A DNA stretch of 64,000 nucleotides, from positions 1,271,001 through 1,335,000 of the forward strand of contig NZ_CP012643.1 of NCBI RefSeq assembly GCF_001310085.1, written 5' to 3'. Each line of letters begins with the position of its first letter. Position 1 is the stretch's first letter. Both the position numbers and the translations under genes were made by a program. The notes under the pieces are model-generated. The model did not search any database. It saw only the letters and a list, made by a program, of their open reading frames with translations, and was not told the DNA's origin. Positions 18 to 60,703 of the stretch are shown here, one piece after another. Origin of the DNA: Rufibacter tibetensis (GTDB taxonomy: Bacteria; Bacteroidota; Bacteroidia; Cytophagales; Hymenobacteraceae).

Positions 18-51
18 CTCAAGCCTGTTTTCTCCAAAACAGCCCCAAAAC
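18..51. repeat. Dispersed intergenic palindrome, copy 1
   Basis: The core is CTGTTTT (25-31), a 4-nt loop and AAAACAG (36-42), flanked by a CAAGC-type left end and a CCAAAAC right end. It matches the approximately 34-bp repeat found at many other intergenic sites in this window. It lies upstream of pheT. Confidence 0.7.
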
Positions 52-147
52 ACCTCTGCAAACAAGTTCTGCTACTGCATGGAGGCTTCAGACACACCCC
101 ATTCCATAAAAAATCATCCCTTTACGTCCATCTTCCCCAGTTTTTGG

Positions 148-155
148 TAATTTTG
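148..155 (+). promoter_or_regulatory. Candidate -7 element for pheT
   Basis: TAATTTTG fits the Bacteroidota -7 consensus TAnnTTTG and lies about 70 bp before the chosen pheT start. No clear TTTG -33 box is seen at the usual spacing, so this rests on the -7 element alone. Confidence 0.35.
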
Positions 156-225
156 AAAATTGCAGCCGCAGAACGGCTGGTAGGGGGCGGCGTTGCTGCA
201 CCTGTCACACCCTGAGATTAACACC

Positions 226-2640
226 ATGCGCATATCACTGGATTGGTTAAAGACTTTAATTGCTATAGATAAACCCGCCCAGGAAGTGGGCAAACTCCTC
301 ACAGATGCCGGTTTAGAGGTAGAAGGCATTGAAACTGTTGACGTAGTGACTGGCGGCCTGAAGGGGATGGTCATTGGAGAAGTGCTGACCTGTGCTAAAC
401 ACCCCGATGCCGACAAACTAAGCGTGACCACCGTGGATACCGGCGAAGGCGAGCCCAAGCACATTGTGTGCGGCGCGGCCAACGTAGCAGCGGGCCAGAA
501 AGTAGTCATTGCCACCGTAGGCGCCACTTTGTACCCAGACGGCGGCGAGCCTTTCCAGATCAAAAAATCAAAAATCAGGGGAGCCGTGTCTGAAGGCATG
601 ATCTGTGCCGAGGACGAAATAGGCTTGGGCACCGACCACTCCGGCATCATGGTGCTAGACACCAATCTACCCAACGGAACACCTGCCGCCCAGTACTTCG
701 GGTTGGCTTCTGACGAGGTGTTCGAGATTGGTTTGACGCCCAACCGCGCCGATGCCGCCTCTCACTTAGGCGTAGCACGTGACTTACAGGCTCTGCTCAA
801 AACCCCGTATCAACTGCCAGACTTAAGCAACTTCAAAGTAACCAACACCAACCTACCCATCTCTGTGGAGGTGGAAAACCTGGAGGCTTGCCCCCGTTAT
901 GCTGGCGTTACCCTTTCCGGGGTGAAAGTGCAGGAGTCGCCAAAGTGGTTGCAGCAGCGCTTACGGGCCATCGGGTTGTCGCCTATCAATAACGTGGTAG
1001 ACGTGACCAATTATGTGCTGCACGAATTAGGTCAGCCCCTGCACGCTTTTGATGCTGAAAAAATCAAAGGAAGTAAGATCATTGTAAAGAATGCCTCTGA
1101 AGGCGCGAAGTTCACCACCTTAGACAGCGTGGAGCGCACCTTACGCACCGAAGACCTTACCATCAGCAACGCTGAGGAACCGATGGTTTTGGCGGGTGTG
1201 TTCGGTGGTTTGCAGGCCGGCGTGACCGAGGCAACCCAAAACATCTTCCTGGAAAGCGCTTACTTCTCCCCAGCCGGCATCCGGAAAACGTCTCAGACGC
1301 ACGGCATCAAAACTGATTCATCGTTCCGTTTTGAGCGCGGCACTGACCCTAATATGGTGATCACGGCTTTGAAAAGAGCTGCTTTATTGATCCAGGAAAT
1401 AGCCGGCGGTACCATTTCTTCTGAGATTGTGGATGTGTATCCAACCCCAATTGAGCCCACCCAAATCCGGGTAAGCTACGCCCGTGTACACCAGTTGATC
1501 GGTCAGCACATCGGCGAAGCCAGAATCAAGGAGATCTTAACGGATCTGGGCATCAATATTCTAGAGGAAACCGCTGAGGGCTTGCTCCTGTCTATTCCGC
1601 CGCACAAGGTAGACGTAACCCGCGAGGCCGATGTGGTGGAAGAGGTATTGCGTATTTACGGCTACAACAACATTCACCTGAGCGAGAACCTGGCTGCGAG
1701 TTTCTTGGCCAAGTTCCCCAACCCTGATCCTGAGGTCATCACCAAACGCATCGCGGATGCCTTGGCAGCTAATGGGTTCTTAGAAACCATCACCAATTCG
1801 CTTACTAACTCCAACTACTACAAAGACGCGGAAGGTAACACGTCAGCTGAACTGGTACCTATTTTGAACTACAACTCTGAGGACCTGGATGCCATGCGCC
1901 TGACGCTGGTGTACTCTGGTTTGGAGGTACTGCGCCACAACATCAACCGCCGTCAGCGTGATCTGAAAGTATTTGAGATTGGAAAGGTGTACCGCAAAGA
2001 AGGCGAGAAATACAAAGAGAGCAACTACCTGGCTTTGTTCATGACGGGCAACCGCGCCGCCGAAAGCTGGCAACAGGCTACCGCCAAGGCTTCTTTCCAT
2101 GATTTGGCCGGACAGGTACAGAAGGTCCTGACCCTTTGCCGTCAGCCTAACTTAACCACCAAGCCTACAGAGCACCCGTACCTGTCAGGCGGCGTCACTT
2201 ACCAGAAAGGCGATGTTACGTTGGGTCACATCGGGTTGCTGAAAGATAGCGTGTGCAAGCAGGTAGACGTGAAGGAGCAAGTGTGGTTCGCTGAGCTAAA
2301 TTGGGATTATTTGCTGCGCAACTACAAAGAGAAGCTGGTGTTTGAGGAACTCTCCAAATTCCCGGAAGTGCGCCGCGACTTGTCTTTGGTGGTGGAAAAA
2401 TCCGTATCTTTTGACCAAATCAAACAGGTAGCCCAGCGCGTGGAGCGGAAACTCCTGCAGGATGTGAACGTGTTTGACGTGTACGAGGGAGATAAGATTG
2501 AAAGTGGCAAGAAAGCCATTGCCATCAGCTTTACCCTGCAAGACAAGAACCAAACACTTACTGACAAAGTGATTGATTCTACCATGAGCCGCTTGATGCA
2601 ACAGTTTGAGCACCAACTAGGAGCCGTAATCCGGAAGTAA
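226..2640 (+). CDS. pheT: Phenylalanine--tRNA ligase beta subunit
   Basis: This is the large beta subunit of the alpha2-beta2 enzyme that charges tRNA-Phe in the cytoplasm. The 804 residues match the usual bacterial length. The protein opens with MRISLDWLKTLI. An EMAP-type tRNA-binding domain follows at about residues 39-150, with LKGMVIGEVL and HPDADKLSV. The B3/B4 editing region is at about 200-370, B5 near 400-475, and the C-terminal anticodon-binding FDX-ACB domain covers the last roughly 95 residues (FPEVRRDLSLVV). An in-frame TTG at 193 would add 11 residues, but the ATG at 226 fits the family start. The alpha subunit gene is not in the window. The coiled-coil gene 2642-2938 begins 2 bp after the stop, so the two are probably co-transcribed. 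Confidence 0.97.
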   Translation: MRISLDWLKTLIAIDKPAQEVGKLLTDAGLEVEGIETVDVVTGGLKGMVIGEVLTCAKHPDADKLSVTTVDTGEGEPKHIVCGAANVAAGQKVVIATVGATLYPDGGEPFQIKKSKIRGAVSEGMICAEDEIGLGTDHSGIMVLDTNLPNGTPAAQYFGLASDEVFEIGLTPNRADAASHLGVARDLQALLKTPYQLPDLSNFKVTNTNLPISVEVENLEACPRYAGVTLSGVKVQESPKWLQQRLRAIGLSPINNVVDVTNYVLHELGQPLHAFDAEKIKGSKIIVKNASEGAKFTTLDSVERTLRTEDLTISNAEEPMVLAGVFGGLQAGVTEATQNIFLESAYFSPAGIRKTSQTHGIKTDSSFRFERGTDPNMVITALKRAALLIQEIAGGTISSEIVDVYPTPIEPTQIRVSYARVHQLIGQHIGEARIKEILTDLGINILEETAEGLLLSIPPHKVDVTREADVVEEVLRIYGYNNIHLSENLAASFLAKFPNPDPEVITKRIADALAANGFLETITNSLTNSNYYKDAEGNTSAELVPILNYNSEDLDAMRLTLVYSGLEVLRHNINRRQRDLKVFEIGKVYRKEGEKYKESNYLALFMTGNRAAESWQQATAKASFHDLAGQVQKVLTLCRQPNLTTKPTEHPYLSGGVTYQKGDVTLGHIGLLKDSVCKQVDVKEQVWFAELNWDYLLRNYKEKLVFEELSKFPEVRRDLSLVVEKSVSFDQIKQVAQRVERKLLQDVNVFDVYEGDKIESGKKAIAISFTLQDKNQTLTDKVIDSTMSRLMQQFEHQLGAVIRK

Positions 2641-2641
2641 G

Positions 2642-2938
2642 ATGTCTGACCAATCTACCCTTCAGCAGATCCAGTCCATTGAGGGCAAAGTGCGCCAGCT
2701 GGTACAACAGTACCAGGCCGGGCAAGAGCGGCTTCAGGCAGCCCACCAGGAAATAGCGCGCCTCCAGCAAGTGATTCAGGAAAAAGATGCTGAGATAAAA
2801 AATTTTCAGAATCAAGATAATATTAGTAAAATTGTACAAACCATAGCAGTAGACACTGCCAGTTCAACGGAGTTGAAGCTGAAAATAAACGAGTACTTGC
2901 GTGAAATTGACAAGTGTATCGCTTATTTAAGAGAATAG
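2642..2938 (+). CDS. Small coiled-coil protein between pheT and zapA
   Basis: This 98-residue soluble protein has no signal peptide. Residues about 5-60 are rich in Q, E, K and L with heptad-like spacing, as in a long coiled coil. A compact C-terminal part (residues about 60-98) contains LKLKINEYLREIDKCIAYL. It starts 2 bp after pheT, and zapA begins 177 bp further on. The small size, coiled coil and position beside zapA suggest a cell-division accessory protein of ZapB type, but that is inference from context only. I do not recognise a named domain. Confidence 0.75.
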   Translation: MSDQSTLQQIQSIEGKVRQLVQQYQAGQERLQAAHQEIARLQQVIQEKDAEIKNFQNQDNISKIVQTIAVDTASSTELKLKINEYLREIDKCIAYLRE

Positions 2939-3115
2939 AAGTACGGGTTGTCTGGTTGCGGTTGTTGTATGTTCTTTTTAAACGCGTGTTTACACGCTCT
3001 TATACCCATAATAGAACCTTAGGCTTGACATGCGGAATTTTTACTTTTTTATGACATCGCAGGGCAACCTTTCAACAAACAAACGCGCCACGGCAGCACT
3101 TAACAGCATCTGGAC

Positions 3116-5068: not shown

Positions 5069-5132
5069 GACATTAAATTTTAGACGCTAGAAGTTAGACT
5101 CCTGTATTGGAGCTGATTTATAGAAATAACGT

Positions 5133-5168
5133 AAAAAGGCCCTCTACTAAAAAGTAGAGGGCCTTTTT
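5133..5168. terminator. Strong bidirectional terminator after rny
   Basis: A perfect 16-bp stem (5133-5148 with 5153-5168) has an AAAA loop and a GGCCCTCTACT core flanked by A5 and T5. The symmetry lets it end both rny on the plus strand and the leftward stress-gene run on the minus strand. Confidence 0.92.
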
Positions 5169-8029: not shown

Positions 8030-8049
8030 CAACATCACGCACCTACTGC

Positions 8050-8082
8050 TTAAGCCCTCTTCTGCTGAAAACAGGCTATAAA
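8050..8082. repeat. Degenerate copy of the dispersed palindrome
   Basis: Outer arms TTAAGCC and GGCTATAA and the right core GAAAACAG are kept, but the left CTGTTTT core has decayed. It lies in the oxyR leader region. Confidence 0.4.
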
Positions 8083-8107
8083 CAGCTACTCAATACCTTA
8101 GACAACC

Positions 8108-9043: not shown

Positions 9044-9047
9044 TCTG

Positions 9048-9082
9048 TTTTAAGACTGTTTTCTTTAAACTACGCTTAAAAC
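9048..9082. repeat. Dispersed intergenic palindrome, after oxyR
   Basis: Arms TTTTAAG and CTTAAAAC enclose GACTGTTTTC and a partial AAAC right core. It sits directly 5' of the oxyR/sucD terminator hairpin. Confidence 0.6.
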
Positions 9083-9114
9083 AAAAAGGCGGCTCTTTGC
9101 AGAGCCGCCTTTTT
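9083..9114. terminator. Bidirectional terminator between oxyR and sucD
   Basis: A perfect 14-bp stem (9083-9096 with 9101-9114), loop TTGC, has a GGCGGCTCT core flanked by A5 and a T run. It serves the convergent genes oxyR and sucD. Confidence 0.92.
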
Positions 9115-10103: not shown

Positions 10104-10141
10104 CTTAGAATTCCCATTAAGCCCTTCCGGTAAGAATATCC

Positions 10142-10176
10142 GTTTAGGTGTTGTTTTCTGAAAATAAGACTAAAAC
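10142..10176. repeat. Dispersed intergenic palindrome, sucD/A2M gap
   Basis: GTTTAGG, GTTTTCTG, AAAATAAG and ACTAAAAC follow the repeat pattern. It lies between the divergent sucD and the large plus-strand gene. Confidence 0.55.
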
Positions 10177-10249
10177 CAAGAGCAGGCGCTTTCCTGAGCA
10201 CACTCAGCAATACAGTAAATTCACTATATTAAGACCAAAAAGCGCCTCC

Positions 10250-13200
10250 ATGCCTCTGCCCTCCTGTCTTCGTCTGTGTTTTGCCTTACTCATAACCTGT
10301 TGCCTGCTGCCTATTCTTCAGGTTAAGGGTCAACAGAATCTAGCCCTTAGCCGCACCACCAGTTACTACACCTACATCTATAAAATCACGGATACAGAAG
10401 CGAAAACCTTGTACGAGAAAGGGATGGACGCTGCTAAGCAAAGCTTCTTTCATTTTAAGGTAGATTCATTCCAAACGGGGCTGAGCTACCCTAAGCAATT
10501 ACCGCAAGGCCATTACCTTTACGCGTATGCTTCTGGTCCAGACCTGGAATACATCCTGCAGAGCCAAACCAATCTACAACTACAGTTACTGAAAAACCAC
10601 GTGGATTTGGCGGCGGTACTGTATGACACGTTAGGGACTTCCATCACCACTGCCAAGGTGCAGCTAGGCAGAAAACAAATCCCCTTTGATGCTGGTACTG
10701 GAAGTTACCGGTTAGCGAATACCAAGAAAAGTGGACTGCTTTCAGTGACGCATGAGGGTTTTACCTTCTATGTGCCGGTAGAACAACATAACAAAAAGTG
10801 GAAAGCACCACTATGGCGGAAAGTATTACTGGGTCGGCCTGTGTATTACATCTGGAGCCCTTTCCGGGATATTGGCTACAGCATTATCCATGGGTACCGC
10901 CGCGGGTTTGTCCAGCACTTCTTCAACTTGTTCGATGGCTCCTGGTTGGATAATTTCAACAGTACTCCTAAGGGTTACCTAGTCCTGAACAAGCCCATGT
11001 ACCGGCCCAATGATACGGTGCAGTACAAAGCATTTCTGGTCAAGCCAAACGGCAAGCCTTACCGGAAACCCTTAAAAGCAGAGGTGTATGGCAACAGCAA
11101 AACCAAGAAGGTAGGTGACTTGAAGCCTTACCGGCCAGGCGCCTATGAAGGTTCCTTCGTACTGCATGACTCCCTCCAACTCAGGCTGGACACCTATGTA
11201 AACATAAAATTAGTACGGGAGAGAAAATGGAACGATGACCAAATCATCAGCTCTCAGTTCAAATACGAAGACTATGAACTGAAGGAAAACACTTACACCC
11301 TCCGATTAGAAAAACAGGAGCATTTTGCCGGCACTACCAATAGTGTCATCTTGCGAGGAGCCGATGCCAATGGTTTAACCTTAACCGATGCCCGGGTAGA
11401 ACTAACCGTACTGACACGCCAGATCAGGCAGACCAATGCTCCTGTGCAGTTTATTCCAGACACGTTGTGGGCGCACCAGCAGCCCCTGGAAAACTCCGGC
11501 GAAACCACCATCCAGCTTCCGGTCTCTATCTTCCCCAAAGCAAAAGTAGAGTATCAGGTAGAAGCGGTTTTCCTGAATTCCAGCAATGAGCGAAGCACCA
11601 AGAGCGCCAAAAGCATTTACTCCTTTGAAGACGGCCACCTGAAACTGAGCTTGTTAAATGACAGCCTTCAGGCCAGCTACCTGGAAGGCGAGAAATCACT
11701 TCCTAAAGAAGCTACCTTAACGTTAACAGATGCGAAAGGAGAAAAACTGCAGACGCAGAAAATCAACTTACCCGCATTGCTGCCATTGCAGCCTCATGCT
11801 CAGAAATACCAGATTACTGCTGGCAAGCTGCAAGCGAGTTTAGACCTGCAAGATGAACCGGCTAACCTCCAATTTTATTCTGAGCGCACCGGCGACTCTC
11901 TTTTCCTGAGCATCCAGAACCCCAGACACCTGCCCTTCTGGTACTTTGTGTACAAAAACAACCGCTTGATTGACCGCGGCCAGGATACCACCTCTTTGTG
12001 GCACTACAACCGCAAAGCCGCTAATCAGGAGCCGTATTACGTGTCTGTGCAATACTTATGGGGTGGCCAGGTGCGCAGTGAGGAATACAACGCCCCTTTC
12101 CGAAAACATGAGCTGGATATCATGGTACAAGCACCAGCTACGGTCTATCCGGGGCAGAAAACCACGATGACGCTCCAGGTAAAGGATGCAAAAGGCAAGC
12201 CAGCCGCCAACGTAGACCTCACGGCTTATGCGCTCACCTCCAAGTTTAAGACTGCTGCCCCGCCTCAGCTTCCCAGATTTAGCAGGTACCAAAGCAGAAA
12301 AGACCGGCGCACCTTTGCTTTGAAAGATGGACCGGAACAGGGCTCAAGCTTGCTGCAGTGGGAGCATTGGCGGAAAAGTATGGGCTTGGACAGCTTGGCG
12401 TACTATGATTTGTTGTACCCCCAAAAAGGCATCTACACCAACTACACTGCCAACCCAGATAGCCTCACCCAGTTTGCTCCCTTTGTGGTAGATTCCGGAA
12501 GAGTGATGCCTGTGCATGTGATTTTTTTGGACCAGGTACCAGTGTATTTCTCCGGTACCAATGTGGTCCCGCCCTACTCCTTCCCGGCCGACAGCGGATA
12601 CCATTATTTAAAACTCCGCACAGCTAAACACTTTATTGAACTGGACAGCGTGTACCTAAAGCACGGGCAAAAACTCCTTCTGAGCATCGACCAGAACAAG
12701 ATGACGCACTTGCTGGAAAAAGCTAAAGAAGGGCAACTGGCAGAAGCAGAGCAAGGTGCCCTCACGCAGTACCTGGTTCCGGTGGAGCAGAATTTCCACA
12801 CCGGCCTCACGTTTCTGAAGCAAGGAAACACCATTCAGTACTTGCCTAACAGTTCTTCCACTAGAACGCTCAACCGCGGAAATCAGTGGGATAAAATTCT
12901 CCTGACGGGTCCTTTCCGAGCGGGTGTGATGCAATTTAACTCACTGGGTAATTTCACTACCAGCTTTACGCCCGAAGCCAACTACACCCATCGTTTTGAA
13001 CCTGATTTACTGAAAATGCGCGAGAAACAGACGTTCGCCGGCAAAGTGTTTCTTTCTGCCAGAGGCAACTCTTACCATCTTGCCTCCAGTGCATTGGCAG
13101 AAACAGCCTACACAGAAGATAAATTGCGCAAACAATGGGCAGAAAGTCAATATGCGTACTGGTTAGACATAATTTTGGACAAGCCAGAATACCACACAGA

Positions 13201-16147: not shown

Positions 16148-16388
16148 CAGTTTAGCTTTAGTTTACTATTATGTTTCGGGCATGTTTTATAGAAAGCTGG
16201 CCCGAAAGGCAAGTAGATTTTATTAACATTTTTTTGAGTTGACTTGGCGTTACATGTAGTAACAATTCACATTAATTTAGCTCTATTATTAGTAAAGGAT
16301 TTTTTAATTGAGTTAACATTTGCTAATTCAGTTCTATAGCTGCTTTTCAAAGTCTGATAAAACTCTTTGATAATACTTGCTTATAAAA
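16148..16388. other. AT-rich intergenic region after the A2M gene
   Basis: About 240 bp without a credible ORF. It is AT-rich and separates the convergent A2M and pectinase genes. I saw no repeat or promoter that I could support. Confidence 0.5.
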
Positions 16389-16502: not shown

Positions 16503-19500
16503 TTATTGCTTCACCACCTTGATGGTAGTGCGTTTCCCACCTTGCCAGATTTCTACAAGGTAGGTTCCAGCAGCAAGTTTGTCGCCGAACTGAACAGATT
16601 TATCAACTTCACTTTTGAACTGCTCAACTTTACGGTTAGTTAGATCACGCACCATCACCTCTGCTGTTTCCCCCTCAGTTCCTTCAAGCACTAGGGTGAA
16701 GTAAGAATTGCTCGGAATTGGATACACCCGAACTTGCGGTTTGCCTGTTTCTATACCCATCGTGGACACTTGGGTACTGGTTACATTACCTGATGTAACA
16801 CTGCCACCAGTGATAGAAATGTTCCCGCCGCTCAAGTTTGTTTTGGCAGAAGAGGTACCCGTCCATTTGCTGGAAAGCAGTAGCCCTCCTTCGTTGGTCC
16901 AAACAGTGAAACTTATTGCATCATTGGCGCCAGTTACCCCCTTATCAGTCATCTCCACCTGCAATGTAAGATTACCTGCTACTGACAATGGGTTCAGCGG
17001 ATTTGTGATATCTACCATGGCAGCTTTGCCTGTGAACACAGCCAGCTTGTTCATCTGGTCAGCTGTGTTAGTTGAAAGTGAGTTCATCACATTCCCTTTC
17101 AGTTGATACACATGGGCAATACCATCAGCCTCCGTTCTGCTGAAGATCACGTTAACACGTCCCTGCAGGTTTTTACCTGATTTATTGTATTTCACATTAG
17201 CGGCAAAATGAATCTTTGCTCCTGCATCAGCTGCATACTGCCCCTTTGAATTTGAGGTGGAAATAGCACCCGCTCCTACTACAAAGTCATTCAAAGGCTT
17301 GGCCACTAACACCGTCACATTATCGGCAGCACTGTTCCTGAAATAAGGACCGTTGTCTACTTCAATACCGATGGTGTAGTCTGCCGCATCGCTGGCTCCG
17401 GTAGTGGTTGCCCAGTTATAGACAGCCGTTCCGGTGAGCTTATCAGCATTATTTACAAGTACTACAGACAACCAGTCAGAAATAGCGGTATTGGTCTCCC
17501 TGTTCACAAAGCGCACCTTAGCCTTACTGATGTCTCCCGGATGAACATCGCCTGCAGCGTCACCCGTAGCAGATATGTCCTGAATGGTAGCGCTTAAGGT
17601 TACAGTTGCACCAGAACAGGTAGCGCAGGATGTGTTTACAAACTGTGACCCTGTAAACGTGATCAGGGCGTCCTCTTGCGTTATGGTCAAGATATTAGGC
17701 ACAAACGTAAGAACATAGTTGCTGCTCAGCGCCAACGTTCCCTGATTAACCGTGTAGGTACCTAGCTCTTCTCCTGCCAAACGCTCCAATGAACCAGTGA
17801 ACGTATCTGTACCTATCAGTGTGCCTTCCACAACAAAGGATAACACTGGGTCTGGATCGCTCCACTGTTTGGTAAGCGGATCTGCCTTAACGGTTATTGC
17901 CGCGGGGTTGATCGTGAGGATGGCAGTTTTAGAAGCAGCTGTATAGTATTTGTTTCCGGCAAAAGCAGCTTCAACGGTATAAACGCCAGCCTCAACCGGT
18001 AGCCCCGCCAGCGTTGTTCCTGCTGCATCTTTGTAAACCAACGTTACTTCTGGTTGCAACCTATCCTCTGACCCATTTACACCATACGCATAGGCAGTAG
18101 CAGAATATGGTTGACCATTATACGTAAAGGTGCCATCTTCCATTTTCAGGGTTGGAATTGCTTTCGTGAAGGTGGTCACTCCAAAGAAAGACAAGTTGGT
18201 AAATCCAGTGGCTGTGGCTACGTAAGGGCTGGCAGTTGTTCCGCTGCCAGTGAGTGTGGCAGCCGTGGTTTCCCAATCTCCGTCTGCATACTTCATTACA
18301 TAAAGCTGCTGCGCAGGATCAAAGGCACTTGCCTGATCAGCCGCATTCCATCCAAACTGGGCAGCTAACATACTTCCTCCCTCTACATCTTCCTTTATAC
18401 TCCATTGCTTGTTCACCACTTTACCTGGCTCCGTAACGGGGTTGTCAAAGGTGTTTTTAACGGTTATAGCAAAGTTATCAAAGGTACCGGTGTTCGTTAA
18501 AGTAACTGGATTGTAGCTGTTGGTTGCCGTACCTATTGGGAAAGTAACTGCCGTAGCTCCTACTGCCCGTTTCAGGACGGCATTTTCAGACATGATGAAG
18601 TAATTGGTCCCAAGTCTTAGATTGGTTGTTTTAGTTGCATCAATTGTACCTCCGTCTGCCACGGTCATCACCACTCTGCCATTGCTGGTTGAAGATGGTG
18701 CGCTGTTCACAGTATTGAATCCAGTACCCAATTTCAAAGTTCCGCTGCTACCAATGTTGAGAGAGATCAGGGAAGATGCGTTGGTAGAAAGAGGCACCAG
18801 ATTAGAATTGGTAGTAGTGGCACTCAGATCCAGCGTACCATCAATATTATAAGTGTAATTACCACCTGGGTTTGCTGTACTGGTTCCAGTAGGGCTAAAA
18901 GAACCCGAAGGATGTACTAATCTTACCGTTTTCCCTTTATTGATAGTGAAGGTAACATTCTCATTAGTGGTATTGCTGACGTGGTTGTAATAGGCAGTGA
19001 AGGCAGCGTTGTTGAAAGAAAGGTCCACATCCTGGTCAAAGGTTACCTGCAACGGGTTCGTATTTCCAGGCACTGGACGCAGGCGGGTAATTCTGGAAGT
19101 CCCTGAACCCGTCCATAACACAGAAGCACAGGCAGGATTGAATTCCATGATGATCAAATCATCAGGATTGCTATTACCCCCAAAAACGCCATCGTTCTGG
19201 AGAAGCACACTTGCTGCCGAACCTGCGCCAATACGCAAGGTCTGCGCATTTGGAGTGGTGTTGTATCCCCCATTACCTTTCAGTACTGCCCCACTTTCTA
19301 TGGTCAGGTTATTGGCATTTTTCAGTCCGTCTACTATTACAGAATGCCCCTCTCTGATGGTTACGTTCACACTGTTCGGTTGAACACCTTTTGCTTGTAA
19401 TACCCAAGTCTTAGTGGAGGCACTATATTTCTCCCAGATAGAGGAAGCATTTGCTCCATTGCCGGTAGTTGCATTTGTCCAGAAGCCTGAACCCGCTGAC

Positions 19501-22500
19501 CTGAACTCCCCATCAATGGGAATACTTGGATCAACAATAGCTATATAACTTTGATGGGCTGTTAAACCTGCTTTGGAAGCTTTTACATAGTAGTAATAAA
19601 CGGTTCCTTTCACGGGCACACCATCTGTTACACTGAAAGCTACTACTTCATCAGTAGATCCTTTTACCGTGCTTACCTTTGTAAAATTCACGTTATCTGT
19701 GCTACGGAACACCTCATACAGCACATCACTCATAGGCCAGCTAAGATTCCAGCTAAGGGTTGTACTGGAAGCTCCTCTCTGAGCCCTGAAGTTAGCCACC
19801 GCTAATTCAGCAGGCACCATATTGTTCAAGGCTGGAAAGGCAGCATTAGGATTCCAGGCACCAAACAGGTTTGTGTTGTCATAATAAAGCGCTGCCTGTG
19901 CATCGGTTAACTGTTTAGACCAGGAAACGCGCTGGCTTACATCCACTAACTCACCGTTATACTTTTTGCTTTTGTATTCTGCATAAGTAATAAGCGAAGT
20001 ATTGGTAGTGGCATTCCAAACCGACCAACCAGCAGGGATAACGGAAGTGCCCATTACCGTATTCAAGAAGACAGTCTTAGACTCTTTCCCTAAATCATTC
20101 TGCCAAGGCCTTCCCAAGGAATAATTAGTTACACCCCGGTTATTGGGGATACGGCAATCCCTGAATACCTCACCATAGGGTTGACCGGCCGGTGTATTGG
20201 CGGCGGTAACATATCCGCCTGAGTTGCCATCAATCCTATCTCTGCCATAGATGATACAGTTATCAAACACTGCAATAGAGCTACCAAATACGAAATCTGT
20301 GTTGCCATCTATGTAACAGTCTTTGAAGTACTGCCGTTTGCCGTCGCCGTTATGCCATACGGTATCCTGACCACTGATGAACCGGCAACCTTTAAATGCG
20401 TTCCGGTCACCCACTACATACAAGGCAAGCGCCTGCGGCCCATCTCCTACGTAACCCGAAGCGTTCTCTACCGTGATGCTCATCATGAAAAAGTCATTGG
20501 CGTTCACAGTAAGAGTGGCAGAAGTATTGGTGCCAAGCGTCACGCCATTCTCTACCTTGCCAGCATAGGAATCCCAACTGATAATGGTATTGGCCGCGCT
20601 TTCCCCGATAAATTGTAGGAAAGGTTTGTTGGAAGGAATGTTTACTTTTTCTACATATTTCCCATTCTTGATATAAATCACATAAGGAGTAGTTCTACCG
20701 GTTGGGGCCGCATTGATAGCTGCCTGTATGCTGGTAAAATTACCCGTACCATCCAGAGCAACTACTGCATCGGCATTGGCCGGTGTATAGACAATAGCCG
20801 CAGCCGTTGTAGTGCCATCAATAGCCAGAGTTGCATTAGCGGCTCCGGTGCTGGAGGCAAGCAGATTACCGCTGTAGGAACCGGCCACAGGCGCATTCAA
20901 CCGCACAAACCGGGTAGCATCAAGGCTGTTATTGGCTGGCGCAAGACTTAAAGAAGTCTGCCATGTTGTTTCATCGGCAGATATTTCAAAACCAGCGGGA
21001 GCCGTTATCTCTACCGATGCTCCCAGATCTGTTCCTTTTACGGTGAAGGTCTTTGCAGCAGAAGGTTTCCCTACCTCTTGGGTAAACGACCCCAAGGTGC
21101 CTGCCAGTGAAACCACAGGAGTCTGGTGCGCCTGAACTGCACCAGAAATGGTGGCCGCTGGTGAATAGTTAAAGGCTTTGTCTACGGTGAAGATGTGATA
21201 GTAATAGGTAGTGCCGGAAGCGAGGGCTGCAATGCTTCCATTATCTGAGAACTGGGTATTCTTCCCTGTGAATACAACTGAGCTATTTGCCCCCATTGTA
21301 TTGCCGGTTACATATACCCCGTTGGCATTGGGCACCGGTGCTGTTGCAGAAGCGCTGCGCACAACCAAGTAACCACCTCCGTCAACCCCACTGGCAGGAG
21401 CCTGCCAGCTTATGGCAATACTATTGGCCGCGCCTTTACTCGCTGGCGAGGTAGCAACATCCGGAGCGGTCATATCAAAGGTACTTCCTTGATAGATTAC
21501 ATAGTCATCAATGTCAAAATAAGGAGACTGCGGATTTTCTACTTTGATACCAGGATAGGTATTGGTAACCGTAACTCCACTCTGCGTAGTCATCACGCCC
21601 TGGAATAATTTCCATTCAGATAATGCAGTACTATGTGAGGTCTCATCCCTCTCGGCAGTGGTGGTACCAGTTCCACCACTCATACCACCTGTAATACTAT
21701 TATAGCCACTCAGGAACAAACTGCCTGCTCCGCTGCTTGCTGGCTTCTTATACCAGAACTGCACCACATATTTGGTACCCGCCTGCAGTGTAGGAGCGAT
21801 TAAAACAGGCGCTAAAAGGTATTTCACGCTGGCACTAGCCCCATTCCAATGCAGTACCTTGGAACCCGTGCGGGCGTTGGTGTTCAGGATTTGAATGGAA
21901 GAAGATGCCTCCCACTTAGTAGTTGAGGTATGGGAGGACACAGTGGAAGAGGAGCCCACTGTCTGGTTTTCAAAACCACCATCTACATCGGGGAAAGCGC
22001 CCAAAAACTGGCTTTCTGGCTCTGGCTCGGGCATAGAAGTTGTACCATTTAATGAAAAACTAACCGACTCGGCTCCCCCTCCTGAAAGCACCAGGGTACC
22101 TGAATATGTTCCGGTAGCCTGCGCATTTAAACGCACTTTGATAGAGGTGGAGGAAACTGTTCCGGCATTTGCTGTCAGGGTTATACTATTCAGCCAGTTG
22201 GTGCCATCAACGGATAATTGGTAATTGGCAGGTGCTGCAATGGAAATGTTACCAGTGAGGTTTGAACCGGAAACCAACAAAGTCTGAGCAGCCGAAGGAG
22301 AACCAATTGCCTGGTTGAAAGTACTGAAAGAACCACTTGCTAATATAGCCGGGTCTTTAGAGGAAGAGAGGGTAGATAAACTATTTAAATAGTTTTCAAG
22401 GTTGGTATAGCCGTTGCTCCCATAGGCATTTCCGTCAGAAGCAAGATTCGGATTCAAGCCATTCTGCTGCTCCCAGGCATCTGGCATGCCATCATTATCT

Positions 22501-25586: not shown

Positions 25587-25590
25587 TGCT

Positions 25591-25625
25591 GTTTTTACCC
25601 GGTTTCCTGAAATCAGCCTCAAAAC
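25591..25625. repeat. Dispersed intergenic palindrome, after uvsE
   Basis: TTTTTACCC, GGTTTCCTGAAATCAG and CCTCAAAAC follow the repeat pattern with decayed pairing. It starts 5 bp after the uvsE stop. Confidence 0.5.
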
Positions 25626-25699
25626 GAATTCCATTTTTATAGAAGATACATCCGCCAGCTAACCTTAACCAGAACGCTGACTTAGATTATACATCCCCC

Positions 25700-29597: not shown

Positions 29598-29627
29598 AGA
29601 GGAGCACCATTAGGCAAGGAAGCTACG

Positions 29628-29666
29628 CATTTTCAAGGCGATTTCAGAAAAACTATCCTAAAATAG
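29628..29666. repeat. Degenerate copy of the dispersed palindrome
   Basis: TTTTCAAGGC, TTTCAGAAAAA and ATCCTAAAAT keep the layout of the repeat with weak base pairing. It lies upstream of the acyltransferase. Confidence 0.35.
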
Positions 29667-32078: not shown

Positions 32079-32130
32079 AAATCCCCGTTTCAAGCCTGTT
32101 TTTTTGAAATCAGACCTGAAACGGGGATTT
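32079..32130. terminator. Hairpin with embedded dispersed palindrome
   Basis: AAATCCCCGTTTCA (32079-32092) pairs with TGAAACGGGGATTT (32117-32130), followed by AATTTTT. The loop contains a copy of the dispersed palindrome (GCCTGTTTTTTTGAAATCAG, 32087-32122). It serves the ROK gene and the convergent DUF4112 gene. Confidence 0.8.
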
Positions 32131-32158
32131 AATTTTTATAGAGCTCTTCTCTAAACGG

Positions 32159-32731: not shown

Positions 32732-32768
32732 AAACGGCCCTAAAGCAGATGCTGCTTTAGGGCCGTTT
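32732..32768. terminator. Terminator of pruA
   Basis: A perfect 17-bp stem (32732-32748 with 32752-32768), loop ATG, has an AAACGGCCCTAAAGCAG arm. On the minus strand it is followed by a short T run. It lies 22 bp past pruA. Confidence 0.85.
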
Positions 32769-32789
32769 CAGGAATATCAAACTAAAAGC

Positions 32790-34418
32790 TTATTGCTGCA
32801 GGAACGGGTAACGGTAATCTACCGGAGGCACAAACGTTTCTTTGATGGTACGGGCGCTGGACCAACGCAACAGGTTCAGCATAGAACCGGCTTTGTCATT
32901 GGTTCCCGATGAACGTGAACCACCAAACGGCTGCTGCCCAACCACGGCTCCGGTAGGCTTGTCGTTGATGTAGAAGTTACCGGCGGCGTGGCTCAATTTC
33001 TTGGTGGCCAACTCCACTGCGTAACGGTCGTTGGCGAAGATGGCGCCGGTTAAGCCGTATGGCGAAGTTTCATCTACAATCTGCAAGGTCTCCTCAAACT
33101 TGTCAGCGTCATACACGTGCAGCGTCAACACCGGCCCGAAGAGTTCTTCGCACATGGTTACGTACTGCGGGTCTTGCGCCACAATGATGGTTGGCTCAAT
33201 GAAATAGCCCTTGCTCTTGTCATGGGTGCCTCCGGCGATGATCTCCACGGAGTCGTCTTTCTTGGCAGCCTCAATGTAGCGGGCCAGTTTGTCAAAGGAT
33301 TTCTCGTCAATCACGGCGTTGATGAAGTTGCTGAAATCGCCGGGATCGCCCATTTTGAAGGATTTCAGGTCTTCCACTACCTGAGCTTTCACCTCATCCC
33401 AGATGTTGTTCGGGATGTAAGCGCGGGAAGCAGCAGAGCACTTCTGGCCCTGGTACTCAAAGGCGCCACGGGTGATGGCGGTGGCCACTTCTTTCGCGTT
33501 CGCGGATCTGTGCGCCACAATAAAGTCTTTCCCGCCGGTCTCGCCTACAATACGTGGGTAGTTGCGGTACGTGTTGATGTTATCAGCAATGGATTTCCAG
33601 ATGTGGTTGAAAACGCCGGTGCTGCCGGTAAAGTGAATACCCGCGAACTGACGGTGACGGAAGATCACCTCACCCGCTTCCGGGCCGTCTACATATACTA
33701 AGTTGATCACGCCAGCTGGTAAACCAGCGGCTTTAAACAACTCCATCACTACCTGAGCCGAATAAATCTGGGTGTTGGCTGGCTTCCATACTACCACGTT
33801 CCCCATCATGGCCGGAGCGGCGGGCAGGTTGGCGGCAATAGACGTGAAGTTGAACGGTGTCAAGGCGAACACGAAACCTTCGAGCGGACGGTGCTCCAGA
33901 CGGTTCCACATGCCCGGCAAAGACTCTGGCTGCATCTTGTAGATATCGGTCATGTACTTGGCGTTGAAACGGAAGAAGTCGATCATCTCACAGGCAGCGT
34001 CAATCTCGGCCTGGTACACGTTCTTAGACTGACCAATCATGGTAGCTGCGTTCATGCGGGCTCTGAAAGGTCCGGCCAAAAGGTCAGCGGCTTTCAGGAA
34101 GATGGCGGCGCGGCTTTCCCACGGCATTTGTGACCACTGCTCACGGGCGGCCAGGGCAGCGTCAATGGCCTGCTGTACGTGACTGGCGTTACCGTAGTGG
34201 TAGTGAGCCACTACGTGCTGGTGGTCATGCGGCGGCGTGAACGGCACTTTGTTATCGGTGCGCACTTCTTCGGCCCCAATGTACATGGGTATGTCTAATT
34301 GCTGCTCGCGCAGCGCATTATATACTTGTTGCAGTTCTTCTCTTTCTTTGCTGCCGGGCACGTAGCTTTTAACGGGCTCGTTTACCGGAATGGGGACATT
34401 GAAAAATCCGTTGGCCAT
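32790..34418 (-). CDS. pruA: 1-pyrroline-5-carboxylate dehydrogenase
   Basis: This aldehyde dehydrogenase oxidises glutamate semialdehyde, formed from proline, to glutamate with NAD in the cytoplasm. The 542 residues match the stand-alone P5C dehydrogenase form. Visible motifs include the NAD-binding FTGSTGVF, the catalytic Glu in VGETGGKDFIV, the catalytic Cys in GQKCSAASRAY, and EELFGPVL. The frame opens at 34457, but the ATG at 34418 starts MANGFFNVPIPVNEPV as in the family. The proline dehydrogenase partner is not in the window. Confidence 0.95.
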   Translation of the reverse strand: MANGFFNVPIPVNEPVKSYVPGSKEREELQQVYNALREQQLDIPMYIGAEEVRTDNKVPFTPPHDHQHVVAHYHYGNASHVQQAIDAALAAREQWSQMPWESRAAIFLKAADLLAGPFRARMNAATMIGQSKNVYQAEIDAACEMIDFFRFNAKYMTDIYKMQPESLPGMWNRLEHRPLEGFVFALTPFNFTSIAANLPAAPAMMGNVVVWKPANTQIYSAQVVMELFKAAGLPAGVINLVYVDGPEAGEVIFRHRQFAGIHFTGSTGVFNHIWKSIADNINTYRNYPRIVGETGGKDFIVAHRSANAKEVATAITRGAFEYQGQKCSAASRAYIPNNIWDEVKAQVVEDLKSFKMGDPGDFSNFINAVIDEKSFDKLARYIEAAKKDDSVEIIAGGTHDKSKGYFIEPTIIVAQDPQYVTMCEELFGPVLTLHVYDADKFEETLQIVDETSPYGLTGAIFANDRYAVELATKKLSHAAGNFYINDKPTGAVVGQQPFGGSRSSGTNDKAGSMLNLLRWSSARTIKETFVPPVDYRYPFLQQ

Positions 34419-34562: not shown

Positions 34563-35321
34563 ATGGCTCCTAAAGACAATTTCTCCACCCAGGCCAGCCT
34601 CTACAAGAAGTTCAGGCCCACGTACCCCGATGCCTTGTACCAGCATCTGCGCTCATTGGTTTCTACTCCTGCACTGGCGTGGGATTGCGGAACGGGCAAC
34701 GGACAGGTGGCGGTAGAACTAGCCAAACTTTTCACCCACGTACATGCCACTGACATCAGCGAAAAACAGCTCGCCCAAGCTCCACCCTCTGACCGCATCA
34801 CCTACCATCTTCTTCCGGCGGAGCGCACCACTTTTACCGATAACTCTTTTGATTTGATCACAGTAGGTCAGGCCGTGCATTGGTTTGACTTTGATACTTT
34901 CTTCGCCGAAGTAGCCCGGGTAGCCAAGCCAGATGCAGTAATAGCTATCTGGGGCTATGGTCTGCTTTCCATCTCTCCGGAGGTAGACCCGCTCATTCTT
35001 GATTTCTACACCCAAACGGTAGGACCTTACTGGGATTTTGAGCGCAGTTACATTGACGGGGCGTACACCACCATTCCGTTCCCGTTTGAAGAAGCCCCTG
35101 CTTTTACCGGTGCCATTACTACCCATTGGTCTTTATCTGAGTTGGAAGGCTACCTGAACTCATGGTCCAGCGTGCAGGCGTACATCCGGCAGAAAGAAGA
35201 AAACCCTGTGGTGCTTCTGATGCAAAAGATGAAAGAAGTATGGCCGGAGGAAAAGCAAAAAGAGGTGTGTTTCCCTATCTTCAGCCGAATAGGACGGGTT
35301 AAAAAGGGAAGCCTCCTTTAG
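34563..35321 (+). CDS. Class I SAM-dependent methyltransferase
   Basis: A 252-residue soluble methyltransferase of the Methyltransf_11 type. Motif I is LAWDCGTGNGQVAVELA (about residues 38-54), with the acidic end of beta2 at HATDIS. The post-I block ERTTFTDNSFDLITVGQAVHWF holds motif IV. A C-terminal half (SELEGYLNSWSSVQAYIRQ) resembles trans-aconitate-type and other small-molecule methyltransferases. The substrate is unknown. It is divergent from pruA and ends in a 48-bp palindromic terminator that contains a copy of the dispersed repeat. Confidence 0.9.
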   Translation: MAPKDNFSTQASLYKKFRPTYPDALYQHLRSLVSTPALAWDCGTGNGQVAVELAKLFTHVHATDISEKQLAQAPPSDRITYHLLPAERTTFTDNSFDLITVGQAVHWFDFDTFFAEVARVAKPDAVIAIWGYGLLSISPEVDPLILDFYTQTVGPYWDFERSYIDGAYTTIPFPFEEAPAFTGAITTHWSLSELEGYLNSWSSVQAYIRQKEENPVVLLMQKMKEVWPEEKQKEVCFPIFSRIGRVKKGSLL

Positions 35322-35356
35322 GCCCGTTTTCTGGAAAACAGGTCTAAAGGAGGCTT
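35309..35356. terminator. Bidirectional terminator containing the dispersed palindrome
   Basis: Outer arms AAGCCTCCTTTAG (35309 on) and its complement ending at 35356 enclose GTTTTCTGGAAAAC. The centre, 35318-35349, is one of the best copies of the dispersed repeat. The site overlaps the methyltransferase stop and serves convergent genes. Confidence 0.85.
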
Positions 35357-37258: not shown

Positions 37259-37294
37259 TAGTTTTTAGGCAATTTTTCAAGATTTGACTCCGAA
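37259..37294. repeat. Degenerate copy of the dispersed palindrome
   Basis: TTTTTAGGC, TTTTTCAAGA and CTCCGAAAC keep the outline of the repeat but not its pairing. Confidence 0.35.
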
Positions 37295-37367
37295 ACAGAA
37301 CTCCCTTTTTGCCTTGCGGTCTGGGCGAGGGTGCGTAAGTTTGGCCTCCACAAACCAAGAGGAAGTA

Positions 37368-38510: not shown

Positions 38511-38548
38511 ATGTTTCTGGCCTTTTCCTCAAAACAGGCCAGAAACAT
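38511..38548. repeat. Dispersed intergenic palindrome, strong copy
   Basis: ATGTTTCTGGCC (38511-38522) pairs exactly with GGCCAGAAACAT (38537-38548). The centre TTTTCCTCAAAACA fits the repeat core. It sits 10 bp past the barrel gene and may act as its terminator. Confidence 0.75.
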
Positions 38549-41189: not shown

Positions 41190-41199
41190 ATAAGATGGC

Positions 41200-41234
41200 T
41201 TTTTAGGCACGTTTTCAAGAAATAAGGCTGAAAA
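41200..41234. repeat. Dispersed intergenic palindrome
   Basis: TTTTTAGGCACGTTTTC followed by AAGAAATAAGGCTGAAAA fits the repeat layout with partial pairing. It begins 11 bp after the gene at 40641. Confidence 0.5.
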
Positions 41235-41250
41235 TATTTTGGCATAGACA

Positions 41251-41697: not shown

Positions 41698-41782
41698 GAA
41701 ACAACAAAGCCCATGAGCCTACGCATCAACCATCCACTACGCCAACAACAGCAAACTGCATGCACTACAACACCCAAACGCA

Positions 41783-41815
41783 TTTCAAGCCTTGTTTCCA
41801 AAAACAACCAAAAAG
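41783..41815. repeat. Dispersed intergenic palindrome
   Basis: TTTCAAGCCTTGTTTCC and AAAAACAACCAAAAAG follow the repeat layout. It lies upstream of the M16 peptidase gene. Confidence 0.5.
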
Positions 41816-41873
41816 CAGAAGATCTCCCCTCCTACCCTATCCCTCCACTGAAAAGCGTTTCACCTAATGAGGC

Positions 41874-44917: not shown

Positions 44918-44946
44918 GAAAGGAGCAGCCGTTGGTTGCTCCTTTC
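44918..44946 (+). terminator. Terminator of the M16 gene (twin of 47668-47696)
   Basis: AAAGGAGCAGCC pairs with GGTTGCTCCTTT around GTT, followed by CCTGTTTTT. The 29 bases are identical to the terminator of the PRISE gene 2.75 kb away. Confidence 0.8.
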
Positions 44947-44948
44947 CT

Positions 44949-44983
44949 GTTTTTAGGCACTTTTGTTAAAAACAAGACAAAAG
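44949..44983. repeat. Dispersed intergenic palindrome
   Basis: GTTTTTAGGCACTTTTG and AAAAACAAGACAAAAG fit the repeat layout. It overlaps the T tract of the M16 terminator. Confidence 0.5.
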
Positions 44984-45146
44984 CTACTGAGGAGTATGCT
45001 CTCCCCACCGGTATTTACACCTTATTGCCTTATTTAGAGAAACATCAAATCTCTGAGTTCGTTACACCTACTTCGTCTTGAAATTCAAAAGCTGCAGGGG
45101 TTTCATTACGAGGGATGGTATAGTGCACCATACCAATTAAATGGCT
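44984..45146. other. Intergenic region before the MFS gene
   Basis: Part of a 395-bp gap between the M16 and MFS genes. I see no ORF or structure here beyond the adjacent repeat and promoter. Confidence 0.4.
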
Positions 45147-47635: not shown

Positions 47636-47667
47636 AACCTTTACTTAGTGCCTGAATCTGGAAATAA

Positions 47668-47696
47668 GAAAGGAGCAGCCGTTGGTTGCTCCTTTC
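47668..47696 (+). terminator. Terminator of the PRISE gene (twin of 44918-44946)
   Basis: Same hairpin and same 29 bases as the M16 terminator, followed by TTATTTTT. Confidence 0.8.
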
Positions 47697-47699
47697 TTA

Positions 47700-47733
47700 T
47701 TTTTGGTCTATTTTTCAGGATTATACCCTAAAC
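47700..47733. repeat. Degenerate copy of the dispersed palindrome
   Basis: TTTTTGGTCTATTTTTCAGG and CCCTAAAC keep the layout only. It follows the twin terminator just as copy 44949-44983 does. Confidence 0.35.
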
Positions 47734-47759
47734 TATCTGCCTGCGCCTACTTCGTTTAC

Positions 47760-52916: not shown

Positions 52917-52924
52917 CAAATATA
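52917..52924 (-). promoter_or_regulatory. Candidate -7 element of icd
   Basis: On the minus strand TATATTTG matches TAnnTTTG. The leader to 52821 would be about 90 nt. The -33 region is T-rich without a clear TTTG. The rest of the 300-bp gap up to 53121 shows nothing else I can support. Confidence 0.45.
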
Positions 52925-53121
52925 AGCGTCTTTTTAATATAGGCTAAAAATAGGCGAACCATTTGAGAAGTTAGTGCGCTGCCATTTACCCTACGTACTT
53001 TCACGCATCTTGATTAAGGCTGAGTAAGGATTAGCACCAGTTTTAAGAATATGCTGCAAATATCCATTCTTGCCGGCTACATGAGAACACGCACTAAGAG
53101 CCCTCCACGCGTATACAGCCT

Positions 53122-53893: not shown

Positions 53894-53933
53894 CCGCTTT
53901 AGACCTGTTTTCCATAAAACAACCTTAAAGCGG
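53894..53933. repeat. Dispersed intergenic palindrome, strong copy
   Basis: CCGCTTTA (53894-53901) pairs with TAAAGCGG (53926-53933), with GACCTGTTTTCC and AAAACAACCT inside. It lies between the lipoprotein and the endonuclease V gene. Confidence 0.75.
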
Positions 53934-56639: not shown

Positions 56640-56664
56640 CCCTTCCCTACCGAGTCTCTGGAGC

Positions 56665-56699
56665 GTTTCAACCCATTTTCTGGAAATAACTTATAAAGC
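56665..56699. repeat. Dispersed intergenic palindrome
   Basis: GTTTCAACCCATTTTCTGG and AAATAACTTATAAAG follow the repeat layout. It begins 26 bp past the SPFH gene. Confidence 0.5.
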
Positions 56700-56740
56700 T
56701 CAGTTTTTCCTACCCTCCTCTTCAGGCAGGGTCTTAACCA

Positions 56741-57360: not shown

Positions 57361-57542
57361 TTAACTTGTGCCACTACGTTCATATAGGCATCCTCCTTTA
57401 AGACGTTTTGTCTGATTATGTTAACTAGAAACATTTTTGTTTCTGCCACTTTTTCCGAAAATCCTTCTAAAACCGCTTCGGTACCTCATTTGCTACTAAC
57501 GTCGTATCAAACTTAGAAACTACTCAACGACGATATAGAGCT

Positions 57543-60217: not shown

Positions 60218-60244
60218 TGCCTTTCTAATTGAACTAGCTGCTTT

Positions 60245-60278
60245 GTTTCAGGGCCTTTTTCAGAAAAAAGAAGCCAAG
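60245..60278. repeat. Dispersed intergenic palindrome
   Basis: GTTTCAGGGCCTTTTTCAG and AAAAAAGAAGCCAAG follow the repeat layout. It lies 28 bp past the clpB terminator. Confidence 0.5.
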
Positions 60279-60403
60279 AATCAATAGTCAATACCATCAA
60301 TCTCTGCAGATTTAACCATGCCGCCTTCCATCGCTGGCGCGAGCGTCCCGCTCGTGTCCGCACGCATTCCGAATCTCTTTTGATTAAGCTCATGAGAGTA
60401 CCT

Positions 60404-60434
60404 CTATGGCGCGGAAGTAACTTCCGCGCCATAG
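60404..60434. repeat. 31-nt palindrome inside the nested element
   Basis: CTATGGCGCGGAAGT and ACTTCCGCGCCATAG are perfect complements around a single A at 60419. Confidence 0.8.
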
Positions 60435-60450
60435 CAACAGTCCCTCCCCA

Positions 60451-60545
60451 ATTTGTCATCTTGGAAAGACCTTGTGGGCGAACTAGAAAGACAGGAGAGC
60501 ATGTGATATTTCTGTTCGCTCCCAAGATCCTTTCAGGATGACAAA
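60451..60545. repeat. Inner inverted repeat of the nested element
   Basis: ATTTGTCATCTTGGAAAG on the left matches the complement of CTTTCAGGATGACAAAT on the right with a few mismatches; CTTGTGGGCGAAC and GTTCGCTCCCAAG also pair. It looks like a separate, older repeat captured within the outer arms. Confidence 0.65.
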
Positions 60546-60669
60546 TAAGTAGGAGTATACAGCAATGCGTGCGGACACGAGCGGGACGCTCGCGCCAGCG
60601 ATGGAGGTCACCAGATTTTCGCCTTTCAGCATCCTCTCCAAAGTAGCTTCTGCAGATAGGTTTCTTTCA

Positions 60670-60703
60670 TTTTTGACCTGCTTTTCAGAAAACACACCAA
60701 AAG
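60670..60703. repeat. Dispersed intergenic palindrome
   Basis: TTTTTGACCTGCTTTTC and AGAAAACACACCAAAAG follow the repeat layout. It lies between the nested element and the HupE-like gene. Confidence 0.6.

Follow-up and report, generated by a model that had tools for sequence, protein, structure and literature searches.

A chromosome-wide dyad element confined to the genus Rufibacter: putative sites of a dimeric DNA-binding protein, with species dialects changed in place

The intergenic DNA of Rufibacter tibetensis carries a recurrent dyad element of about 40 letters, of the form GTTT-N9-TTT(C)-NN-(G)AAA-N9-AAAC, which was characterized here starting from a 64,000-nucleotide stretch of the chromosome (the window; positions 1271001–1335000 of contig C1, in a genome of 5.41 Mb and three contigs). 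Copies of the element are numerous on the chromosome, limited to the genus and fixed in position, and they are spelled in species-specific dialects around a constant core. These sequence features suggest that the copies are probably sites of a dimeric DNA-binding protein whose specificity has shifted between species, with some of them reused as RNA hairpins.

A half-site matrix was learned by iteration from 464 kb of the genome, comprising the window and twenty stretches of 20 kb, with a cut-off of 14 bits, at which first-order shuffles give at most 5% as many calls. At this cut-off 278 copies were found (286 versus 19 shuffled at 13 bits, and 264 versus 10 at 15 bits), of which 195 are intergenic, 68 lie inside called genes and 15 are at the edges of stretches; genes were called with a custom script based on open reading frames (ORFs) and codon usage, not a standard predictor. 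A matrix trained with the window excluded gave 167 calls in gaps of at least 45 bp, compared with 3.0 in per-gap shuffles, and 144 of 260 such gaps were occupied. Twelve of the twenty own-genome stretches had been picked for holding an exact copy, and the eight picked otherwise yielded 99 calls in 160 kb, at about equal density; extrapolation gives approximately 3,000 copies on the chromosome.

Within the window, the matrix trained on all stretches made 36 calls of at least 14 bits (shuffle mean 1.74, maximum 5, in 50 shuffles), and the matrix that had not seen the window made 33 (mean 1.1, maximum 4, in 30 shuffles). The first-pass annotation of this DNA had described a recurrent intergenic palindrome at 18 places, and this description was borne out: all 18 were recovered by the window-excluded matrix, they score 17.6–40.0 bits, and their midpoints all fall between genes according to the ORF-based caller. 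Some details of that description did not hold. Four copies regarded as decayed are ordinary members of the family (20.6–31.5 bits), the proposed inner palindrome CCTGTTTTC..GAAAACAGG has no perfect occurrence in the window, and the larger hairpins said to be perfect around single copies are 88–94% complementary (35308, 32079, and 38511), the sole perfect hairpin (32732–32768) being formed between two abutting dyad copies. Eighteen further calls lie beyond the named places, 7 of them intergenic and 11 within called genes.

The half-sites are 19–20 nt long, with a consensus of roughly yGTTTtnrGscctGtTTTy, in which two T-tracts stand 11 bp apart; in the complete element, the 5′ arm contains the T-runs and the 3′ arm the A-runs. 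Of the 195 intergenic copies, 116 have half-sites separated by 2 bp and 56 by 1 bp. Half-sites of at least 14 bits are nearly always paired (105 of 106 in genome G048, 87 of 87 in G012, 69 of 69 in G045, and 53 of 56 in the degenerate G000; G and L numbers denote genomes and loci), and lone half-sites occur at or below shuffle level. No GTAG or CGTC tag is conserved in the half-site matrices, which show GTTT instead. A known RNA family was rejected, as nothing in the window matched Rfam at gathering score, and searches restricted to open-access papers found no description of the element.

A scan of related genomes found the element abundant in the genus and practically missing from the other genomes sampled. 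The strict pattern GTTTN9TTTYN{1,2}RAAAN9AAAC occurs 157–1,379 times in each of 16 of 16 genus genomes (0–2 for a reversed control) and 0–3 times in each of 134 other sampled genomes of the family. An order-wide sample of 390 genomes, partly overlapping the family sample, likewise gave 157–892 copies in 7 genomes of the genus and 0–3 in each of the 383 others, with at most 6 for the reversed control. Matrix calls at 20 bits were absent from 30 Pontibacter and 34 Hymenobacter loci; at 14 bits, Pontibacter had 13 versus 14.4 shuffled, Hymenobacter slightly exceeded its shuffles (15 versus 4.2), and a short Adhaeribacter locus from a metagenome-assembled genome had 3 versus 0.6. The leading intergenic inverted repeats in the Pontibacter and Hymenobacter loci are mostly terminator-like hairpins. 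A family-wide system spelled otherwise in Pontibacter, Hymenobacter and Adhaeribacter was rejected, in a pooled test that would dilute species-level dialects.

Placement relative to genes was analyzed in 15 blocks of orthologous chromosome, each of 104, 100, 60 or 20 kb and all centred on one locus (G027 was excluded, its uvdE match being only 37% identical). The element is present in 237 of 303 gaps of 200–600 bp. Occupancy of gaps of 200–399 bp is 110 of 152 for tandem, 21 of 23 for convergent and 48 of 56 for divergent ones; the corresponding counts at 400–600 bp are 42 of 49, 11 of 11 and 5 of 12, and those at 45–99 bp are 16 of 131 for tandem and 14 of 26 for convergent gaps. In tandem gaps, 67 copies have their midpoint 20–30 nt past the stop codon (a single random placement gave 20), and the 60 nt immediately preceding a start codon are avoided (29 copies versus 76 in random placement). 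Thus, the earlier statement that copies lie mostly just past stop codons captures a real preference but not a rule, since divergent gaps are occupied as well. The intergenic share is very high in the species with sharp dialects (47 of 47 in G012, 60 of 63 in G048, and 39 of 43 in G045). Regular chromosomal spacing beyond that of the gaps themselves was rejected (across 14 blocks, z averaged −0.1 and ranged from −1.9 to 2.3).

The element is not mobile. Across seven close species pairs, 296 of 344 copies in gaps between neighbouring orthologues align with a partner copy, 27 align to copy-free sequence changed by substitution, 20 are unclear, and a single one is a clean insertion or deletion; this tally enters copies from both members of a pair, uses some species in more than one pair, and accepts any partner of at least 6 bits. 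Of 1775 ordered comparisons of copies past stop codons, 1055 have a partner no more than 10 nt from the equivalent position relative to the orthologous stop (null expectation, 12%).

The two parts of the half-site evolve differently. Between close pairs, substitutions affect 0.087 of T-tract core positions, versus 0.321 of positions in the middle, 0.275 elsewhere in intergenic DNA and 0.225 in other TTT/AAA runs, with 5 of 171 elements, mostly gapped, dropped from the analysis. The core is slower than other intergenic DNA in each pair (0.011/0.249 for G012-G017, 0.058/0.227 for G037-G051, and 0.143/0.332 for G000-G022), and the T-tracts evolve 2–20 times slower than adjacent DNA; the respective values for the middle versus background are 0.240/0.249, 0.278/0.227 and 0.377/0.332, the last two pairs belonging to the same clade as the window. 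By position, in the 23 elements of G012-G017, positions 2–4, 7, 8, 10 and 11 are slow (0.07–0.17) and positions 9, 12 and 14 are fast (0.35–0.46). Because of these per-pair and per-position rates, the constant part is regarded as clearly constrained, and the dialect part as either free within dialect limits or weakly constrained.

The half-site logo differs between species: it is GTTTaGgGgCtgTTTTt in G045, GTTTTTgGccTgtTTTC in G012 and its sister G017, GTTTTrgGsCtgTTTTy in G006, GTTTTcGGgcTCaTTTc in G048, and degenerate in the clade of G000. The middle carries 8.8–9.8 bits of information in G012, G017, G045 and G048, compared with 3.4–4.3 in the G000 clade. Genome-wide, the G048-dialect dyad occurs 407 times in G048 and 0–1 times in each of the other 15 genomes, and the G045-dialect dyad occurs 576 times in G045 and 0–23 times in each of the other 15. 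Dialects at orthologous sites were compared using matrices trained solely on non-orthologous copies, with both copies scored together. The own-species matrix fits better in 192 of 207 orthologous comparisons from 14 different-dialect pairs, versus 55 of 110 from 4 same-dialect pairs, these 18 pairs having been chosen from 105 possible ones and the comparisons not being independent, as copies recur across pairs. Orthologous copies in G048 and G045 are about as dialect-true as other copies; those of G012 are less dialect-like than elsewhere against four of five species (1.55 versus 3.41 bits against G000), and the same holds for G006 against G045 and for G057 against G045. Since orthologous sites carry the dialect of their own species, the spelling has been altered largely in place.

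The covarying arms noted in the first-pass annotation are a property of some genomic contexts and not of others. When arms were permuted inside species, covariation among pooled copies was seen at the base of the stem and at positions 7–9 but not at positions 10–15. By context, and with calls below 14 bits excluded, covariation is evident in convergent copies (z of 8.3 for the outer stem, 6.1 at positions 7–9, and 3.1 at positions 10–15; n = 112) and in tandem copies (5.5, 8.6 and −0.3; n = 382), and is missing from divergent copies (0.4, −1.9 and −1.1; n = 76) and from in-gene copies (0.7, −1.9 and −2.4; n = 84). Outer-stem complementarity likewise increases from divergent to tandem to convergent gaps. 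Accordingly, what had been described as selection on structure is better read as selection on the dyad sequence, with base pairing added where transcripts end: the DNA dyad is present everywhere, and pairing supplements it where transcription runs past a stop codon into the dyad.

Two secondary contigs are poor in the element. Contig C2 of the R. tibetensis genome was taken to be a conjugative plasmid because it encodes ParA-like and TraG-like genes; its entire 235 kb gave 14 dyad calls, compared with 9.6 in shuffles and 145 expected at the chromosome rate, with five calls reaching 14 bits and three of these strong. The second contig of G048, which was not typed, gave 13 calls in 100 of its 155 kb (shuffle, 2.6; chromosome rate, 63). 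None of its nine calls at 14 bits (L171-L175) has the G048 centre CTCATTT in either half, and one half shares the outer part of the G048 dialect; this contig may have come from another Rufibacter, suggesting that the dialect could help to trace transferred DNA. Scarcity on acquired DNA is in line with copies building up slowly on the resident chromosome, and it is compatible with both a chromosome factor and an uptake signal. A search of a plasmid collection with window positions 24696–26713 found no match. In G000, G037 and G051, a separate contig of 7.3–7.5 kb (L170, L185, and L188, respectively; compared by length) holds three to five dyad calls, and inspection by eye suggests that an ORF in L170 encodes a dihydroorotase.

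Among the three explanations that had been offered initially (a REP-like [repetitive extragenic palindromic] element moved by TnpA(REP), a 3′-end or RNA-stability element, and a protein-binding site), the sequence features favor the third: dyad symmetry, spacing of 1–2 bp, paired half-sites, slow T-tracts and in-place dialects all point to a putative protein-binding site. Each copy would be a double-stranded DNA site for a two-fold symmetric, presumably dimeric, protein with genome-wide sites confined to Rufibacter. In the 19-bp half-site, the T-tracts, one helical turn (11 bp) apart, would probably be contacted through narrow minor grooves, and the GC-rich stretch between them would probably be read in the major groove, with the two half-sites opposed across 1–2 bp. 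Since most gaps of at least 200 bp carry a site, the distribution suggests that the factor would be a chromosome-wide architectural or transcription-unit-boundary protein rather than a regulator of few genes. Its major-groove specificity would have shifted between species, with the sites following in place to give the dialects, and in gaps with a gene 3′ end the palindrome would be transcribed and some copies extended into paired RNA hairpins. Global dimeric DNA-binding or nucleoid-associated proteins include Noc, MatP, ParB and IHF. The element resembles their sites in its dyad symmetry, near-fixed spacing, A/T-tract patches and chromosomal distribution, but differs in that some 3,000 long sites (extrapolated) are placed in most sizeable gaps, in that the specificity changed in place, and in that no ParB, HU or resolvase paralogue is exclusive to the genus among the 60 genomes compared.

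Several observations weigh against the interpretation as sites of a dimeric protein. In the R. tibetensis genome, 68 of 278 calls lie inside called genes, and in a second count, with the window-excluded matrix, called genes gave 46 calls versus 2.4 shuffled. Taken as a whole, the middle of the half-site evolves no more slowly than background in comparisons of close relatives, even in the sharp pair G012-G017, and the orthologous copies of G012 show a weaker dialect against four of five species. Arms covary in gaps with gene 3′ ends, and therefore RNA structure matters for many copies. As for the protein itself, all 14 genus genomes sampled encode a single HTH_ParB, which is also the number in sister genera; the resolvase and HU families show no genus-only increase among 60 genomes (14 of the genus). 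Given that no genus-only pattern was seen in these 60 genomes, ParB/Noc paralogues, HU paralogues and serine recombinases private to the genus were rejected as the factor.

Of the alternatives, a REP-like or MITE-like (miniature inverted-repeat transposable element) palindrome, spread by TnpA(REP) or another transposase into species-specific amplified subfamilies, is the most improbable and has been largely refuted. It would agree with the high copy number, the mostly intergenic position, the palindromic form and the species-specific consensus, but 296 of 344 copies are shared between relatives rather than facing empty sites, with one clean insertion or deletion, the dialects switch in place at orthologous sites, and the conjugative plasmid is nearly copy-free. 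Copies with near-identical cores do not share flanks in G045 (0.256 versus 0.260), and a MITE-like insertion was rejected on this and on the sharing of copies; G048 shows a slight excess (0.317 versus 0.287), and in G012 and G006, with just 3 and 8 near-identical core pairs, there is no flank excess. The Y1-transposase search suggested earlier was carried out and retrieved one gene: the sole Y1_Tnp of the genome (C1:187026-187253) sits between copies of a different inverted repeat, with a dyad-like copy beyond the right-hand repeat (L024, ~2,098; by eye), as beside many genes. G012, with 474 strict copies, has no Y1_Tnp. The dyad resembles REP sequences, bacterial interspersed mosaic elements and REPINs in being a short, high-copy intergenic palindrome (20–40 bp) with a 3′-side bias and a species-specific consensus, but it differs in its shared orthologous positions, almost complete lack of insertion/deletion polymorphism and in-place dialect change. 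Known REP families terminate in GTAG or CGTC, and those of the GTAG type are frequently located near genes for REP-associated tyrosine transposases (RAYTs) (PMC3733652, PMC8266576); the element has neither these termini nor an association with a Y1 transposase. Neutral concerted evolution, in which quasi-palindrome correction or biased conversion would homogenize the copies without any binding factor, is very unlikely. Such a process could make arms complementary and spread a dialect, and it would accommodate a middle that is not slower than background; it is contradicted by the unshared flanks in G045 (with the slight excess in G048), by divergent-gap copies that lack arm homogenization, and by the constraint on the T-tracts.

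An RNA element, that is, a transcript hairpin acting at mRNA 3′ ends in termination or exonuclease protection, with the remaining copies as by-products, is distinctly unlikely as the primary explanation. The peak past stop codons in tandem gaps, the rise in complementarity from divergent to convergent gaps, with covariation only in tandem and convergent ones, and the inclusion of some copies in long hairpins are all in its favor. An intrinsic terminator consists of a GC-rich stem followed by a T-run and is located at 3′ ends. The element is similar in being palindromic past stop codons and in extending into hairpins at some copies, but its A- and T-runs stand in the opposite order; 48 of 56 divergent gaps of 200–399 bp are occupied, and pooled divergent copies show no excess pairing. 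Moreover, ordinary terminator-like hairpins coexist with it (window positions 9083–9114 and 44918–44946) and dominate in Pontibacter and Hymenobacter, and the plasmid is almost devoid of copies. Ordinary terminators were rejected as an account of the element. Because arm covariation is seen in convergent and tandem gaps and is missing from divergent ones, the 3′-end or RNA role proposed earlier is partly supported, and the hairpin role looks secondary. An uptake-signal-like sequence is unlikely too, albeit with a behavioral precedent: a transformation receptor preferring dyad DNA would allow locally functionless copies to build up wherever the resident chromosome tolerates them, and dialects would track the receptor. 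This would suit the roughly 3,000 copies (extrapolated), species dialects, shared positions, placement away from starts, and depletion on the conjugative plasmid. The closest behavioral parallel is the DNA uptake sequences (DUS) of Neisseriaceae, for which dialects around a constant core, thousands of copies, core-genome enrichment and frequent intergenic inverted pairs are described (PMC3630211). Like DUS, the element is restricted to one lineage, occurs in very high numbers, varies between species around a constant core and is enriched on the resident chromosome. However, the inverted pair is the rule here, lone half-sites do not exceed shuffle level, and genes of sharp-dialect species seldom contain copies, whereas intragenic DUS are common (PMC3630211).

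The intergenic copies in the window (no strand assigned) illustrate these contexts. Elements in divergent gaps lie at 8046..8085 (31.5 bits; one of those called decayed), 10140..10178 (32.5 bits; G012 has a copy at the same offset) and 37259..37298 (22.0 bits). The element at 9045..9084 (35.9 bits) begins 2 nt past a stop codon in a convergent gap, and the G045 copy at the same offset is in the G045 dialect. Another, at 25589..25627, lies 2 nt past the stop codon of a uvdE-like gene and is present there in 11 of 11 genomes compared; the encoded protein matches that of Rufibacter latericius at 96%, that of Sabulibacter ruber at 95%, and those of other Rufibacter at 88–94%, which places the window in a Rufibacter (Hymenobacteraceae) genome. 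The element at 29627..29666, approximately 30 nt upstream of a start codon, is present in 9 of 9 genomes compared. Hairpins with 24-nt arms contain the elements at 32085..32124 (40.0 bits; convergent gap) and 35313..35352 (34.5 bits; overlapping a stop codon). Other previously named copies are located at 14..53 (36.6 bits), 38511..38548 (27.8), 41198..41237 (28.3), 41780..41818 (30.1), 53894..53933 (38.1), 56663..56700 (17.6, the weakest), 60243..60283 (28.4) and 60667..60706 (29.2). Intergenic elements outside the earlier list are at 5102..5140 (23.7 bits), 16171..16210 (28.4), 52917..52953 (20.5) and 57437..57475 (23.0).

A further unlisted element, at 32752..32791 (22.3 bits), has a left arm that pairs perfectly with an arm of a weaker dyad at 32732–32748. 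In this gap (32732–32791) and in the same gap of L025, L026 and L034, the facing arms of abutting dyads make up a hairpin; its paired positions differ in concert from one species to another, and its A-run and T-run order is of the terminator type. The elements at 44947..44986 (30.2 bits) and 47697..47735 (20.6 bits) stand directly after and at the end of, respectively, two near-identical terminator-like hairpins (44918–44946 and 47662–47702; GAAAGGAGCAGCC/GGTTGCTCCTTTC), each being followed directly by a dyad. The strong dyad at 12991..13030 (31.5 bits) lies within a large called gene, and similar dyads at L031 6516 and L032 6619 may belong to the same coding segment. On the minus strand, 16503–23723 contains a reading frame of about 2,400 amino acids with no tblastn match in ten related loci. 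An unrelated second repeat family (CGCTGGCGCGAGC...CTCGTGTCCGCACG and its inverse) occurs at 31964–32047 and at about 60350–60582 and flanks the Y1_Tnp gene (L024). It has 24 exact core matches genome-wide, is present in some relatives and absent from others at the gap 31959–32158, and is the likelier REPIN/RAYT-like family of this genome.

The element points to an undescribed chromosome-wide protein in Bacteroidota. A motif with approximately 3,000 sites should be frozen, because a change in the protein would break every site; this motif has nonetheless been respelled at its existing sites more than once in a single genus, and the orthologous sites available from blocks of 15 genomes make the evolution of a global DNA-binding specificity testable. 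The sequence tag may also separate the resident chromosome from recently acquired DNA. It is possible, although doubtful, that the element represents a genus-private marking of the chromosome by a dimeric boundary/insulator or identity factor whose specificity jumped repeatedly, with very many sites rewritten in place. If so, it would be a case of bacterial protein-site co-evolution at whole-chromosome scale, with the dialect marking resident versus incoming DNA.

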